Of a DNA stretch of 64,000 bases, positions 6,138 to 51,575 are shown one piece after another. Origin of the DNA: Methanosarcina horonobensis HB-1 = JCM 15518 (GTDB taxonomy: Archaea > Halobacteriota > Methanosarcinia > Methanosarcinales > Methanosarcinaceae); the NCBI RefSeq assembly GCF_000970285.1, contig NZ_CP009516.1:1-64000 (forward strand), given 5' to 3'. Made by a program: the position numbers and the translations under genes. The notes under the pieces were generated by a model. That model ran no database searches. It worked only from the letters and a program-made list of their open reading frames with translations, and was not told the origin of the DNA. The first letter of the stretch is position 1, and each line of letters begins with the position of its first letter.

Positions 6138-6521
6138 TCACTCAGACAGCTCTTTTTCTTTGAGGTATCTGAACCAATCGCCATGCTCGATTACTTCAGT
6201 TTCGGGTTTTTCATCGTAGACATAGATGAAGCCTCTTACCTTCTGTTGCTCCATTTCAAGGTCAACATATTCCCTGTGGTACCCGCCAAAAAGTTCCATA
6301 TAATCAATGGATTTTGCAACCTCAAGCTGCTGTTTTCCTGAAAACCTGCGCACTTCTGCAACCACAAAACTGTCATCCGCCGGGTAGACAGCAGGGTAAG
6401 GACCCAGGGAGTAAAGGGCATACCCCTTGATTCTTGTCATCCCTAGAAAGTCAGACTTGTTTGGAAGGTTTAAGCGCCGACTGTTATGCAGTCCGTCTCT
6501 GAGGCTTCCATAAAGTGCCAT
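6138..6521 (-). CDS. Gamma-glutamylcyclotransferase-like (GGCT/AIG2) domain protein
   Basis: This ~127-residue protein has the GGCT/AIG2 fold signature near the N-terminus, ALYGSLRDGLHN, matching the YGSLxxG substrate-binding loop. KGYALYSLGPYPAV and EVRRF follow, as in the family. These proteins are cyclotransferases acting on gamma-glutamyl amines or peptides, but many archaeal members are uncharacterised. An in-frame upstream start exists at 6620. I prefer 6521 because the conserved domain begins there and the upstream 33 residues look non-homologous; the ribosome-binding site for it (GGAAGG) is only moderately placed. Confidence 0.72.
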   Translation of the reverse strand: MALYGSLRDGLHNSRRLNLPNKSDFLGMTRIKGYALYSLGPYPAVYPADDSFVVAEVRRFSGKQQLEVAKSIDYMELFGGYHREYVDLEMEQQKVRGFIYVYDEKPETEVIEHGDWFRYLKEKELSE

Positions 6522-6741
6522 TACGATTTCTTCGCCTTCCACTCTTTCGTAAGAGCGCTGCCAGCAAATGTTCCTGTGAAAAATCCTTCCATAAAGGGTC
6601 CTGTCTGTCTCCTGATCCATATTCTTTCCTTCTGCATTTATTCCTTTTTCATCAGGCAGTTTTAATTTTACGTCTTCTAGTCCGGCTCCTTTTTATCTCA
6701 TTTTGAAATTATCTCATTTTGGAAGTTACACTTCAAATTTC

Positions 6742-7794
6742 TTACTTCGAAAAACCGTAACCTGCAAAGCGCTGGGTCAGATCAAGGTTTGCAAGCAGGA
6801 ACCGGTCTTCTTTGCTATAGGCAACCTTTTTGTTTCCCGAAAGTTCCAGTACGCAGGTAGTTCCTGGCTTTGCTTCCTTTACTTCATTTCCGTCAACCAG
6901 AATTTTTTCAACGCGCACAGGCTCGGACTGAAGCCCGACAAAAAGGTGAAGTACACTTGCAGGCTCTATCTTTTTTGTAAATTTTGAGATGGTACACTCC
7001 AGGGTATAGTCAGTAGTTACGATTTCTTTATCCGAGATAATGAAACCTCTCTCTATGTCCTTTGCCTGGACATTTTTTAGGCGCATCCCAACTCTCGTGC
7101 CTGTCGGGGCTCTGTCGATATCTACATCATGGCTCTGGATAGACCGGATTTCAATGTCTCTGTCAAGTGGAAAAATTTTGGTCTTATCTTTATCCTTTGA
7201 TGTACCCTGTTTGACAACCCCCAGGACAACACATCCCTTGCCTGTCACATTGAAAGCGTGATCTATGAAGATTCTTGCAGGAAGGCTGTTAAGTTCTGCC
7301 TGTTCTGCTTCTATTCTCTCTGCCATCTCATTGATCCTGGCTTTAAGGTCATCTACACCTTCAAAAGGATTCTTTGCACTTTTGTTTGTATTGATGGAAA
7401 TGGCTTCCCAGTCCTGAAGTGCAGTTCCTGCAGTGATCACTTTTAACTTTGCTTTCAGTTCATCAACCGCATGCATATGCGTGCTGTCCGACCTTGTCAG
7501 GGCAATGATTCCATATTTAAAACCCAGCAGGTCAAGGGCAATAATGCATTCTCCGGTGTGTGCGTCCAGGCCTTGAGGAGGAATACACAGGATTGCCAGA
7601 TCGGAAATATTCAGTGCCGTAACCAGAGATTTAAGGGTTTTCGGGTAGCTGTGAGCATCCACAAAAACCATCTTACGGCTTTCCTTATCGTTGTTGTACA
7701 TCGTTATATCGGAGGATGTTCCTTTTCTCCCTAGATTTGCGGCAAGAGAAGTCCTGCCACTTTTTTCTGTCCCTATAATTGCAACGTTTACCAT
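6742..7794 (-). CDS. aSelBL: SelB-like translation elongation factor paralog with degenerate GTPase motifs
   Basis: This 350-residue protein resembles archaeal SelB/EF-Tu over the G domain and beta-barrel domains II-III, but the nucleotide-binding motifs are eroded. G1 reads GTEKSGRTS (residues 8-16) where GHVDHGKTT is expected. The G3 region is DAHSYPKT instead of DxPGH, and G4 is TRSD instead of NKxD. The barrel domains are better kept (GKGCVVLGVVKQG, PTGTRVGMRLKN, ERGFIIS). SelB's C-terminal SECIS-binding extension is absent. This matches the published aSelBL family, which is found in archaea without selenocysteine and was once proposed to be a pyrrolysyl-tRNA factor. Its role is unresolved. 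The ATG has only a weak GGGA-type ribosome-binding site. Confidence 0.82.
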   Translation of the reverse strand: MVNVAIIGTEKSGRTSLAANLGRKGTSSDITMYNNDKESRKMVFVDAHSYPKTLKSLVTALNISDLAILCIPPQGLDAHTGECIIALDLLGFKYGIIALTRSDSTHMHAVDELKAKLKVITAGTALQDWEAISINTNKSAKNPFEGVDDLKARINEMAERIEAEQAELNSLPARIFIDHAFNVTGKGCVVLGVVKQGTSKDKDKTKIFPLDRDIEIRSIQSHDVDIDRAPTGTRVGMRLKNVQAKDIERGFIISDKEIVTTDYTLECTISKFTKKIEPASVLHLFVGLQSEPVRVEKILVDGNEVKEAKPGTTCVLELSGNKKVAYSKEDRFLLANLDLTQRFAGYGFSK

Positions 7795-8922
7795 GGTGAG
7801 TCCCTTTTCTGAATCGATGTTTTCTAAATCAATGATATTTATGAGAGTATTTTCAGATTATTGAGTTTATTTTAGTGAAGGATTAATTGAATCTTTAAGA
7901 TCAATTAAGTTTCATATCTAATCTATTTCTCGAAAAATACTATTTCTCTAACAACGGTTTTTTTAAATTCATAACTTTCCCATAAATCTTTTTATGATTC
8001 TCTTTAAAGCTACAGGTTTTAAAACTACAGGTTTTGGATTAGAGCTTTTGCTAATTTTGTATCTGCAACTGGTATAACTATATCGGGTTGTATTTTACTG
8101 CTAAAAGTGATATATACACTTGTTGAATACACTTGTTGAGTGGTTTTTAATTGAAAGAAAGTGAGCCGGTGGACGATCCATTAATCATAGATTGAATTTA
8201 CATCCTTCATCCTGTAACTAACACTAAAAACTTTACCTTCAGGCAATGTAAAACTTCACAGATTGGATAGAAAAGATTCCAGAAGATCTGTTGACAGAAG
8301 TCAAGCATGTTTAGTTCTATCCTTAAGGATCTCTGTCAGGTTTACGGACTTCCATAGAAGTTTGTGCAAAAATTAAAGACCTGCATAGAAGGGTTATTAA
8401 TGTAGATTTGAGTCCTTGGGATTTTTCAAAGATTACTAGGGAGATCATTGAGAACGTAATATTGTAACTGATAAGATTACTGCCAAGCCTGGGTAAAAGG
8501 TATACAATCGTAAACATTTTATATTTTTGACAATAAGTTTCACCTTAAAATTTCTTAGGCAATCTGAGGTTCAGGCTTTGGGTTCAGGCTTTGTTATCTG
8601 AGAGGGATGTACAGTCCTCCTTGCAAAACTTTGCGTAATGAAAAGTACATGACGTATGCATTGAGATCCAAAATTAACCACAATAGACAGTTCAGTTAAG
8701 TATGTTTTTCAAAAGGTTAAAGGTTCAACACTATTGATTTCTCGTTTCAACCATGAAATTGTATAGTATTTTCTGGAATAAAATCCTTATTTGACAGATT
8801 TTACTGCTGCAGTACAGCACATTTTGTATAAAAACGCATTTAATAAATAAAGAAATATATAAAGATTATATTAATGTTCGAGTTTTTGGATTGCTCAATT
8901 GAGAGCTTAAAGAGGGATTAAT
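7795..8922. other. 1.1-kb intergenic region, AT-rich, with a possible gene remnant
   Basis: This gap separates the divergent aSelBL and 5'-nucleotidase genes. No intact gene is supported. Around 8250-8467 the plus strand holds protein-like fragments in different frames broken by stops; the longest ends in a segment reading DLHRRVINVDLSPWDFSKI. This suggests a decayed gene that I cannot identify. At 8852-8862 AATATATAAAG is a good TATA box for the 5'-nucleotidase gene. Confidence 0.45.
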
Positions 8923-10650
8923 TTGCCAAAAGATTTTAATTGTTTAATAACTAAAGCCAATAGCTACTTTGGCCTTAAGTTATGCATGATGATGCTTGTC
9001 ATCCTGGCTCCACTGGGTTGCCTGGAGGTCTCAGAGCCTGAAAGAAGTACGACAGAGATCCAGATCCTGGCCATCAATGATATCCATGGCCAGCTTGAAC
9101 CACCCACCAGCAAGATAGTTGTAGATTATAATGAGACAGGTGCACCCATAACTGTCGAGGCTGGGGGCGCGGAGTACCTGGCCACCCACATAAAAAGATT
9201 AAGCTCTGAGAGCCAAAACACATTCGTAGTCTCAGCTGGAGGTTCTATAGGTGCCAGTCCACTTATCTCAGCCCTATTCCATGATGAGCCAACAATAAAG
9301 GCTCTTAACATTATGGGATTGGACTTTTCGGCTGTAGGCAATCACGAACTGGATGAAGGACCAGACGAGCTTATGCGCATTCAGAATGGTGGGTGCCACC
9401 CGATAGATGGCTGCTTCGGTAACTCCTCATTTGAAGGAGCACAGTTCCAGTTCCTGGCTGCGAACATAGTTAATGAGAGTACTAACACTACAATATTTCC
9501 TGCCTATAATGTTACCTACGTCCAGGGAGTGCCCATAGGATTTATTGGAGTGACCTTGAAAGATACGCCGTCCATAGTGATACCTTCTGGAGTGAAAGGA
9601 CTCAAGTTCCTGGATGAAGCTGAAACCATTAATGAATACGTCAGGAAACTGAAGGATATGGGTGTAGAAACCATAATAGTAATCATTCATGAAGGAGGCT
9701 CCCAGGAGGGACTATATAATGAAAGCCTGAACATGACAGGCTCTATTGTAGATATTGTCACAGCTACCGACGATGAAGTAGATGTTTTCGTAACTGGTCA
9801 CACTCATAAAGCCTACAATGCTGTTATTGATGGAAGAATAGTTACAGAGGCTGGCTCAGCAGGTAGTATGCTTACAGATATCGATCTGGTAATAAGTAAC
9901 GAGACTCATGATGTGGTCAAGGGAAGGGCCAGAAACATCATAGTATCCAGAGATGTGCCTAAAGATTCAGAGGTAGTTGAGCTGGTCAAGGAATATGAGT
10001 CTCTGGCCGCACCTCTTGCTAATCGGGTAGTTGGAAATATCACGGACAATATTACAATAGAAGCTAACGATTCAGGCGAATCCTCTCTGGGCAATATCGT
10101 AGCCGATGCCCAGCTTTATGCTACCTCTAACTCAAGTTATGGAGGTGACGTGGTAGCTTTTACTAATCCAGGTGGCATTCGTGCTGACCTGGTATATGAT
10201 CAACTGAGCGATGGGGAATTGCTTGGTCAGGTCACCTATGGTGAAGTTTTCAGTGTCCAGCCATTTGGGAACAGCTTGATCACAATGACTTTGAACGGCA
10301 CTCAGATCGACGCTTTGCTGGAGCAACAGTTCGATAATCCCTCTCCTGGAGATAAACGCATACTGCAGGTATCAAAGGGCTTCAGCTATGCCTGGAACGA
10401 AAGCGCTCCTACAGGTAAGAAGGTCGAAATCTCCAGTATAAAAATCAACGGCGTTTCTCTTGATCCTAATGGCTTTTATCGCATAACAGTGAACGGTTTT
10501 CTGGCTGACGGGGGCGATAATTTCTCTGTCCTGAAGGAAGGTATCGATAGGACAGGGGGGCCTCATGATATGGATGCCCTGGTCAGTTATCTCGGGGCTT
10601 TCTCTCCGGTTTCTCCAGGACCCAATAATCGCATTGCTCTGGTGAAATAA
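8923..10650 (+). CDS. Exported 5'-nucleotidase / 2',3'-cyclic phosphodiesterase (UshA family)
   Basis: This 575-residue bimetallic phosphoesterase of the UshA/5'-nucleotidase family probably releases phosphate from external nucleotides. The N-terminus is a hydrophobic export signal ending LVILAPLGC at Cys33, an imperfect lipobox, so it may be a lipoprotein. The calcineurin-like domain shows NDIHGQLE (~66-73), GNHELDEG, VIIHEGG and VTGHTHKAYN. The C-terminal 5'-nucleotidase domain shows TNPGGIRADL and the final FLADGGDNF. Start is TTG at 8923 after an AGAGGGA element, with a TATA box at about 8852-8862. It stands alone between long gaps, so independent regulation, for example by phosphate, is plausible but not shown. 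Confidence 0.9.
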   Translation: MPKDFNCLITKANSYFGLKLCMMMLVILAPLGCLEVSEPERSTTEIQILAINDIHGQLEPPTSKIVVDYNETGAPITVEAGGAEYLATHIKRLSSESQNTFVVSAGGSIGASPLISALFHDEPTIKALNIMGLDFSAVGNHELDEGPDELMRIQNGGCHPIDGCFGNSSFEGAQFQFLAANIVNESTNTTIFPAYNVTYVQGVPIGFIGVTLKDTPSIVIPSGVKGLKFLDEAETINEYVRKLKDMGVETIIVIIHEGGSQEGLYNESLNMTGSIVDIVTATDDEVDVFVTGHTHKAYNAVIDGRIVTEAGSAGSMLTDIDLVISNETHDVVKGRARNIIVSRDVPKDSEVVELVKEYESLAAPLANRVVGNITDNITIEANDSGESSLGNIVADAQLYATSNSSYGGDVVAFTNPGGIRADLVYDQLSDGELLGQVTYGEVFSVQPFGNSLITMTLNGTQIDALLEQQFDNPSPGDKRILQVSKGFSYAWNESAPTGKKVEISSIKINGVSLDPNGFYRITVNGFLADGGDNFSVLKEGIDRTGGPHDMDALVSYLGAFSPVSPGPNNRIALVK

Positions 10651-10991: not shown

Positions 10992-12164
10992 TCACCAAAA
11001 CTCTCCTTCTAGGATTGCCTGAGTTTTATCATTGGTGCTCTTATTCACTTTTTTAATAATTATTAGGTACTCGTTTCCTATCGGCTGCGGCTCTTCAAAA
11101 ATTGCATCAATCCCAAGCCTTTTCAGATAATTCCCAAATTCTGTGGCGGTTTTGAGTTCCTTTACTCTGATTCTGGCTTCTTCATAGAGTCTCTTCCCAT
11201 CCTTTACACTCCTTATTGACTCTCTTAGTGGGTTCAAGATGCTTTCTCCAAGCTGCATATAGCGCTTTTTGAACTCAGCTTCATTTTCATTCCATTCAAC
11301 TGTCTGAAATCCCTCTCTAACAATCCTTGAGAGCATGTAATCCCTGCCTGCTTCATTGTAGAACCTGAAGGCATGCCTGAGGTCCGAACAGTTGCTCTGG
11401 GATGAGGTATATTTCAGGGGGGCAAGAATCATCTCAGGGTCTTTTATTACTACACCTTCGTGCTCTTTTTCCCCAAGTTTCCGGACTACTTTAGCAATTT
11501 CTTCTGCGGCTGTCTGAAGGGGAAATTCTCCAAAGCATTCAACCTGCAAAAAACTATATTCTTCCAGAATTTTACGCTTCCTGCTTATTGAAAGAGGGTT
11601 GCCGCTGTTTTTTTCTCGGATATCGAAGATATAGAACTCCACGGATTCAATGCCATAGATCTCTTTTGGGACATAAGGGTTGTCAGGGCCCAGCATTTCT
11701 CCATAAAGCACAAGTTCAGGAAAATCATCAAAAAACCTCAGGTCAAGCTTCTCTTTTGCCCTTTCAGTCGTGTAAGGGCAGATATAACCGCTGCGGGTAA
11801 TTGCCAGGATTTCGCCTTTTACTTTTGCAACTCTTACATTATACCCGTTCATTTTTTCTTCAACAGCTACCTTTTCAAGCCCGCTGAAATATTTTTTTAT
11901 AGTGGGGTCCAGTACCATAGCTCTCCGAATTTTGGGAAAACCCATAATTACTTCAAAAGAATCCCCTTTTTCGTAAAGTACTGTTCCTCTTTCTATATGA
12001 GAAATTTCTTTATCGAAACGGAACAGATAGTCATGTTTTCCCCAGTTCCTGGCAAAGTAGTTTTTTTCGAAAAGATGTTGAACCCTCCCTTCGTCAAACC
12101 CTAGGTAGTGAGCTAGCCGCGCAACAAAGTCAGGATCTATTTCCCCATTTTCCCCTTTATTCAT
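10992..12164 (-). CDS. ATP-dependent RNA ligase, archaeal Rnl3/Pab1020 type
   Basis: This 390-residue nucleotidyltransferase matches the homodimeric archaeal RNA ligase family (Pab1020, Methanothermobacter Rnl). The adenylylation motif I is EEKMNGYNVR with the candidate nucleophile Lys104. Motif III-like YIFDIRE and motif IV EGVVIKDPE follow, and a lysine-bearing motif V region (LAPLKYTSSQS) is seen. The N-terminal ~90 residues and the C-terminal helical third (dimerisation region) match the family plan. The enzyme joins or circularises RNA ends through an RNA-adenylate intermediate. KptA and RtcA lie about 10-12 kb downstream. The start ATG at 12164 follows no strong ribosome-binding site. 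Confidence 0.9.
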   Translation of the reverse strand: MNKGENGEIDPDFVARLAHYLGFDEGRVQHLFEKNYFARNWGKHDYLFRFDKEISHIERGTVLYEKGDSFEVIMGFPKIRRAMVLDPTIKKYFSGLEKVAVEEKMNGYNVRVAKVKGEILAITRSGYICPYTTERAKEKLDLRFFDDFPELVLYGEMLGPDNPYVPKEIYGIESVEFYIFDIREKNSGNPLSISRKRKILEEYSFLQVECFGEFPLQTAAEEIAKVVRKLGEKEHEGVVIKDPEMILAPLKYTSSQSNCSDLRHAFRFYNEAGRDYMLSRIVREGFQTVEWNENEAEFKKRYMQLGESILNPLRESIRSVKDGKRLYEEARIRVKELKTATEFGNYLKRLGIDAIFEEPQPIGNEYLIIIKKVNKSTNDKTQAILEGEFW

Positions 12165-44001: not shown

Positions 44002-45476
<1,475 letters not shown>

Positions 45477-45710
45477 AAGCATAAAACACTGTCACCCGGA
45501 TGCCGATAAACCTACAAATCCTCAAACCAGAAATCCTTCGGATTTCTCCATTAATCAGTTTGTTATTCCAAATAACAAATTTTACAAATCATCAAGTGCA
45601 CCCGGAAAGTAAATTTTCGGGGAAGGATGGATAGCCTGCGCGGAACCGCAGGCAGATGAAGTCGTGTATAGGTGCTGTATACTGGACGCTTACTGGACCT
45701 GGTTAGGTAA
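45477..45710 (+). other. 16S-23S spacer without tRNA
   Basis: No tRNA-Ala or other tRNA is found here, unlike in the rRNA spacers of many other Euryarchaeota. Visible elements are the 16S processing arm near 45489-45499, hairpins ATCCTTCGGAT (45530-45540) and TTGTTATTCCAAATAACAAA (45560-45579), and the 23S processing arm at 45694-45708. Confidence 0.65.
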
Positions 45711-48600
<2,890 letters not shown>

Positions 48601-48691
48601 TTCCTTTCACCTAATTCAGGTCCAGGCGAAATCCGGTATGCAGCACCATACATGACTTCTTATTCCACAAAATATCCATTTTATAGGTTGA

Positions 48692-48815
48692 GTTTGGCGG
48701 CCATAGCGGCAGGGCAACTCCTGTACCCATCCCGAACACAGCAGATAAGCCTGCCCGCGTTCCTTACTGTACTGAAGTGTGCGAGCCTTCGGGAACTCTG
48801 GATCGCTGCCAAATT
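48692..48815 (+). rRNA. 5S ribosomal RNA
   Basis: The acceptor-like stem TTTGGCGGC pairs with GCTGCCAAA at the 3' end. Loop sequences include CCATCCCGAACAC and GCCTTCGGGAACTC, as in archaeal 5S. It is cotranscribed with 16S and 23S, ~90 bases after 23S. Ends are approximate. Confidence 0.93.
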
Positions 48816-51361: not shown

Positions 51362-51433
51362 GCCAAGATGGCGGAGCGGCTACGCAATCGCCTGCAGAGC
51401 GATACCATTCCGGTTCGAATCCGGATCTTGGCT
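51362..51433 (+). tRNA. tRNA-Cys (GCA), copy 1
   Basis: Acceptor stem GCCAAGA pairs with TCTTGGC; discriminator base T. The anticodon loop CTGCAGA gives anticodon GCA. The T arm is CCGGTTCGAATCCGG. No CCA is encoded. The 3' flank is T-rich (TTTCTCTT). A second copy follows 70 bases later. Confidence 0.96.
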
Positions 51434-51503
51434 TTCTCTTCTAATAATTGATTTAGCCTAAAACTATATATTCAATAACGTGCTTTAAAAGAATCCACTT
51501 TGT

Positions 51504-51575
51504 GCCAAGGTGGCGGAGCGGCTACGCAATCGCCTGCAGAGCGATACCATTCCGGTTCGAATCCGGACCTTGGCT
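51504..51575 (+). tRNA. tRNA-Cys (GCA), copy 2
   Basis: The body, anticodon (GCA) and T arm are the same as in copy 1. The acceptor stem is GCCAAGG with CCTTGGC, so base pair 7-66 changed from A-T to G-C by a compensatory change. Discriminator base is T, followed by a T run. Methanosarcina is known to carry several tRNA-Cys genes, charged both by CysRS and by the SepRS/SepCysS route. Confidence 0.96.

Follow-up and report, generated by a model that had tools for sequence, protein, structure and literature searches.

A pseudo-GTPase of the aSelBL/aEF-X family in Methanosarcina horonobensis: retained nucleotide motifs, a fixed tyrosine at the catalytic position and a putative role in carrying cysteinyl-tRNA

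The first 64 kb of the Methanosarcina horonobensis HB-1 genome (5.02 Mb, one contig), a stretch of 64,000 nucleotides referred to here as the window, encodes on its minus strand a member of the aSelBL/aEF-X family (6742..7794), orthologous to MM1309 of M. mazei. Our analysis suggests, with moderate confidence, that this protein is a pseudo-GTPase of the SelB/EF-Tu/aIF2-gamma superfamily and probably serves as a permanently "on" carrier or guardian of Cys-tRNA, using GTP structurally and releasing its cargo without hydrolysis. The gene is not new: the family was described under the name aSelBL in 2011 (PMC3037878) and aEF-X in 2015 (PMC4329189), the year in which the structure of the ortholog was solved.

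The gene is a single intact open reading frame of 350 codons with an ATG start. Its best match in the PDB (phmmer) is MM1309 (3WNB, residues 1-350, and two more entries), with 724 bits over 350 of 350 residues and no gaps, followed by an archaeal SelB (4AC9, 95 bits) and then by bacterial SelB and EF1A. This full-length match bears out the assignment to aSelBL in a first-pass annotation of the window. The best model match is the NCBIfam selB model (127 bits, under its cut-off of 242); the Pfam G-domain model misses its threshold, and the domain II model falls slightly short. Among translational GTPases the protein thus groups nearest to SelB/aSelB, together with known aSelBL. It also has the other hallmarks of the family: a gap of 15 columns against a true SelB (L088) in the alignment, matching the switch I deletion of about 15 residues; tyrosine (Tyr50) for the catalytic histidine of G3, which is present in the intact GTPase motifs of SelB; a chain that stops with domain III, at residue 350, and lacks the domain IV of SelB; and the Asp-His and Arg of the aminoacyl pocket (Asp178, His179, and Arg234). 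The best match to selD in the same genome is below cut-off (95 bits against 125), and a search of that genome for a second SelB-like gene returned only the window gene itself and EF1A. No relatives were found in viral contigs; among plasmids the sole matches were bacterial SelB proteins of about 25% identity.

The nucleotide-binding motifs were examined in an alignment of 166 distinct family members taken from genome loci, of which 70, including the window gene, have a P-loop region and 96 are without one (one of the latter, L027, is merely truncated by a contig end). The coordinates that follow are all on the minus strand, and the motifs were placed from column counts, alignments, and the published structure (PMC4329189). 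G1, the P-loop, occupies residues 8-16 (GTEKSGRTS, 7747..7773), with the Walker lysine replaced by Arg14; in the ortholog, residues 11-16 contact the phosphates and Arg14 binds the beta and gamma phosphates (PMC4329189). Gly8, Ser12, and Gly13 are present in 70/70 members of the P-loop clade, position 15 always holds Thr or Ser, and position 14 holds Arg in 50 members and Lys in the other 20. The P-loop of the Methanosarcina-type clade is therefore GxxxSG[R/K][T/S], with a textbook Walker motif in 20 members. The switch I/G2 region (residues 22-32, GRKGTSSDITM, 7699..7731) is 15 amino acids shorter than in SelB; it forms strand beta2 and contacts domain II (PMC4329189). G4 (residues 100-103, TRSD, 7486..7497) was located by alignment to 4AC9 and by column counts; its Thr100 and Asp103 are invariant (70/70), and TRSD is a single conservative Lys-to-Arg change, since true aSelB has TKSD there. 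Against the consensus patterns GxxxxGK[S/T] and [N/T]KxD, both window motifs have this same K-to-R change, and many relatives have the lysine. The G5 region (residues 135-137, NTN, 7384..7392) includes Thr136, which touches guanine in MM1309 (PMC4329189) and is found in 67/70 of the clade.

G3 (residues 46-52, DAHSYPK, 7639..7659) retains Asp46 (68/70 of the P-loop clade; Gly49 is found in 51/70), followed by Tyr50 and Pro51, both 70/70; the same two residues occur in the members without a P-loop (92/96 and 95/96). The catalytic histidine is the one residue that is certainly lost, and it has been exchanged for one fixed residue. The first-pass annotation had described G1, G3, and G4 as destroyed. 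The strings on which it relied (GTEKSGRTS, DAHSYPKT, and TRSD) are indeed present, and it was right that the catalytic residue of a GTPase cannot be recognized, the histidine being tyrosine throughout the P-loop clade. The description fails for G1 and G4: the P-loop and the T-x-x-D motif are kept in all 70 members, and the ortholog binds GTP (PMC4329189).

Domain II (residues 170-257, 7024..7287), which contains the aminoacyl/CCA pocket, is the best-kept part of the protein, in line with the annotation, which had called domains II and III well kept; Asp178, Phe181, Leu191, Gln220, Arg234, and Arg249 are nearly invariant in both clades (column counts, 166 members). Domain III (residues 258-350, 6745..7023) aligns to aSelB up to residue 388 of 482, and domain IV does not follow. 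Pooled over 204 pairs with dS < 1.2 from 29 Methanosarcina genomes, omega is 0.086 for the whole gene, 0.108 for the G domain, 0.044 for domain II (the lowest of the three), and 0.095 for domain III. Within the G domain, the G1, G3, G4, and G5 residues have an omega of 0.052, against 0.120 for the remainder outside switch I. A dN as low as that of the motifs was obtained for 2.8% of random sets of G-domain residues and 6.7% of random blocks, so that the slower evolution of the nucleotide motifs is of modest significance, suggestive rather than strong.

Of 31 genomes of the genus, 29 carry the gene in single copy; among the 24 of high quality it is found in 23, without internal stops, which speaks against a chance reading frame. 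Its persistence as an intact gene had been noted in the first pass. The single miss among the 24 (G014) was considered as a natural loss and rejected, the contig ending just past the upstream RNA ligase gene, where aSelBL should lie. At the class level, 142 of 151 good genomes were positive at the threshold used. A dispensable paralogue decaying and retained by chance might be expected from the loss of the active-site histidine and from the large G-domain deletions seen in the alignment of other clades; that account is largely refuted by the purifying selection (the whole-gene omega) and by the retention in genus and class, and can hardly be credited.

Biochemical data on the ortholog largely answer the question that the annotation had raised. 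By ITC, MM1309 binds GTP with a Kd of 0.43 uM (similar to SelB), GDP with 26 uM, and GMPPNP with 222 uM; no GTPase activity was detected in an assay without ribosomes, and crystals of the apo, GDP, and GMPPNP forms are all closed (PMC4329189). MM1309 protects Cys-tRNACys from hydrolysis, extending its half-life from 80 to 300 min; Cys is the only aminoacyl-tRNA reported, with no specificity over others demonstrated (PMC4329189). In the crystal, switch I blocks the site for the tRNA 5' end, so tRNA binding requires a rearrangement (PMC4329189). The actual GTP form may differ from the crystal forms, because GMPPNP binds 500-fold more weakly than GTP (PMC4329189). Of the properties that the first pass had proposed to examine, GTP binding is positive, hydrolysis is negative, and association with tRNA is positive in the ortholog. 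Its further remark that no physiological role had been shown still stands: a 2015 survey lists the function of aSelBL as unknown (PMC4342817), and no further functional studies after 2015 were found in the openly accessible literature.

From these data a mechanism can be proposed. GTP would be bound through the retained P-loop and T-x-x-D motif and would not be hydrolyzed, because the catalytic histidine of G3 is tyrosine; the nucleotide would therefore serve as a structural cofactor rather than a timer, with the three domains remaining closed in the "on" state. Domain II would grip Cys-tRNACys by its 3' end and cysteinyl group, protecting the ester and perhaps also the thiol. The cargo would be released without hydrolysis, by simple dissociation or by hand-over to EF1A, to a user of Cys-tRNA, or to the ribosome.

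Atkinson et al. (2011) proposed that the protein binds Cys-tRNA, possibly also the ribosome, and has lost classical hydrolysis (PMC3037878). A rival explanation is an alternative elongation factor that brings Cys-tRNA, or several aminoacyl-tRNAs, to the ribosome, for example when oxidative stress has damaged EF1A; a nonclassical mechanism on the ribosome would then trigger or replace hydrolysis. The domain II residues for contacts with the CCA end, the aminoacyl group, and 16S rRNA are kept (PMC3037878), and binding of GTP and Cys-tRNA is known for MM1309 (PMC4329189). Against this, the catalytic histidine is missing clade-wide, and the nucleotide site is wholly absent from the other clade; a function common to both clades thus cannot need GTP hydrolysis, and we regard an elongation factor of this kind as unlikely.

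The clade without the P-loop is informative for the carrier role that we prefer. In a maximum-likelihood tree of 102 members and one true SelB, one branch with 100/100 support divides the P-loop members from those lacking it, which occur in Methanomicrobia, Methanothrix, Bathyarchaeota, Methanomassiliicoccales, and others. These members have lost the P-loop and G4 together, in a single event. The sister clade retains the Tyr-Pro of G3 and the six domain II residues nearly invariant in the family. An AlphaFold model of one of its members (mean pLDDT 95) superimposes on 3WNB with a Z score of 37.6 (2.1 A over 315 residues); its next matches are closed EF1A, aIF2-gamma, SelB, and EF-Tu with GTP analogues. 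The model has a closed, GTP-like shape; it favors nucleotide independence but is no proof of it, since it may be biased by the closed structures of relatives. With the motifs lost and the tRNA-binding residues kept, the tRNA-binding side is the shared core of the family, and one branch can dispense with the nucleotide site.

This comparison permits a more speculative view of the family as a whole, which we put forward tentatively and consider doubtful at present: aSelBL might carry aminoacyl-tRNA without any hydrolysis, its "on" state having been freed from nucleotide in two steps, first by the change of histidine to a fixed tyrosine, with GTP retained structurally in the Methanosarcina-type clade, and then by a single deletion of the nucleotide site, the tRNA core remaining intact. 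If true, the family would form a natural series from a GTPase switch to a permanent carrier that passes on Cys-tRNA without GTP turnover. Should the carrier reading be proven, it would provide a relative of the elongation factors able to bind charged tRNA either with GTP as a permanent cofactor or without any, which would settle a question that dates from 2011-2015; the residues of interest are Tyr50 and those of the P-loop, and the sister clade, having no nucleotide site, offers a natural control.

Members of both types are found in different genomes of one family of the phylum (f11; L087, L036, L038, L041, and L042), and many f11 genomes have neither, a mixed pattern that suggests horizontal transfer or replacement. 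The type without the P-loop was also seen in metagenome-assembled genomes labelled Bathyarchaeota, Methanomassiliicoccales, and Methanomethyliaceae (loci L126, L137, L146, L154, L180, L139, L144, L181, and L182), groups that are not in the 2011 table.

Distribution was surveyed in 295 genomes of the phylum (Halobacteriota), with overlaps counted by hand from the listed positives. The family profile matches 121 genomes; two of these have true SelB in a fusion with PSTK (G383 and G375), leaving 119 with aSelBL. The first pass had mentioned a role in special decoding in Methanosarcina, which uses pyrrolysine, and a dedicated elongation factor bringing Pyl-tRNA to the ribosome at UAG codons would be the corresponding explanation. 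The M. horonobensis genome does encode PylS, and of the 42 genomes of the phylum with PylS, 40 carry aSelBL; one of the exceptions (G014) has its contig end at the expected site. Nevertheless, 79 of the 119 genomes with aSelBL are without PylS, the pocket of MM1309 leaves too little room for pyrrolysine, Pyl is served by no SECIS-like element (PMC4329189), and EF-Tu accepts Pyl-tRNA (PMC3037878). Pocket size and distribution both argue against the suggested decoding role, and a pyrrolysine-specific factor is very improbable.

SepRS is found in 230 genomes, comprising 118 of the 119 with aSelBL and 112 without it. No dependence of aSelBL on SepRS is claimed, given these 112 genomes and the published occurrence of aSelBL without SepRS, in archaea that are not cysteine-rich and in other phyla. 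M. horonobensis encodes both SepRS and CysRS, and so has two sources of Cys-tRNA. The window also contains an rRNA operon (16S, 23S, and 5S; 44002-48814), after which come two tRNA-Cys(GCA) genes in tandem (51362-51575), about 44 kb from aSelBL. The two PSTK-SelB fusions (L088:6199-8319 in G383, 706 amino acids; L192:4071-6233 in G375, 720 amino acids) are each followed by an overlapping gene that by inspection is SepSecS-like, and G383 also has SelD close by (L088:2860-3894); fusions of this kind have been described before from an Archaeoglobi species and Bathyarchaeota (PMC9499178).

The next gene downstream of aSelBL (6138..6620, minus strand) encodes a gamma-glutamyl cyclotransferase-like protein (PF06094; profile match and locus survey), and such a gene is downstream of aSelBL in 33/33 loci tested in the genus and its sister genus. 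The 2011 description (PMC3037878) called the conserved upstream neighbor an ATP-dependent DNA ligase; its sequence identifies it instead as an RNA ligase of the Rnl3 type (10992..12164, minus strand; TIGR01209, 395 bits, over the cut-off, and Pfam RNA_ligase). Partnership with this enzyme would make aSelBL a quality-control factor for tRNA or other RNA. Besides the identity of the neighbor, gene order favors such a link: most other Methanosarcinaceae genera tested have the ligase on the same strand, 12-276 nt ahead of aSelBL, with CBS-domain genes before it, and most Methanosarcina genomes with enough flank have it directly upstream of aSelBL, within 1.5 kb. Yet adjacency is confined to Methanosarcinaceae; in Methanotrichaceae the ligase is nearby on the other strand and not adjacent, outside these two families it was not found in the aSelBL neighborhood, and in M. 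horonobensis the two are separated by an opposite-strand 5'-nucleotidase gene (8923-10650), not seen beside aSelBL at the other genus loci tested. We consider a quality-control partnership improbable. Neighboring genes were rejected as the main evidence for function, because they differ outside Methanosarcinaceae, the ligase/CBS arrangement being found only there. No known RNA families were found near aSelBL, and promoter and terminator matches near the gene were at chance level. Upstream of the 5'-nucleotidase gene, some 100 bp of intergenic sequence (about 8651-8753) form a dispersed repeat, with about nine scattered matches of 73-86% identity in the G014 genome.

The protein can be placed among known systems as follows. 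The name EF-Pyl persists in PDB titles, and neither the pocket (PMC4329189) nor the distribution fits it. With EF1A/EF-Tu the protein shares the fold and the closed domain arrangement of the GTP form (PMC4329189; sister-clade model); its published identity to EF-Tu is 21%, and it differs in its lack of hydrolysis and in the absence, also published, of the domain opening of the GDP form. The selenocysteine-specific aSelB of Methanococcus maripaludis (4AC9/4ACB) has the same three-domain core and aminoacyl pocket residues, with TKSD in G4, and the affinities of MM1309 for GTP and GDP are in the SelB range (PMC4329189); the window protein is without domain IV and the catalytic histidine, has Arg for the P-loop lysine, and has a shorter switch I. 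It is a member of the "conservative" branch of aSelBL (Atkinson et al. 2011), with which it shares the 15-residue deletion in switch I, partial G motifs, the lack of a C-terminal domain, and conserved domains II and III. The closest system is MM1309/aEF-X of M. mazei (3WNB, 3WNC, 3WND, and 2ELF), with which the window protein shares Arg14, Tyr50, TRSD, and the residues of the pocket; the two proteins differ at about 6-7% of positions, none of them in the motifs.
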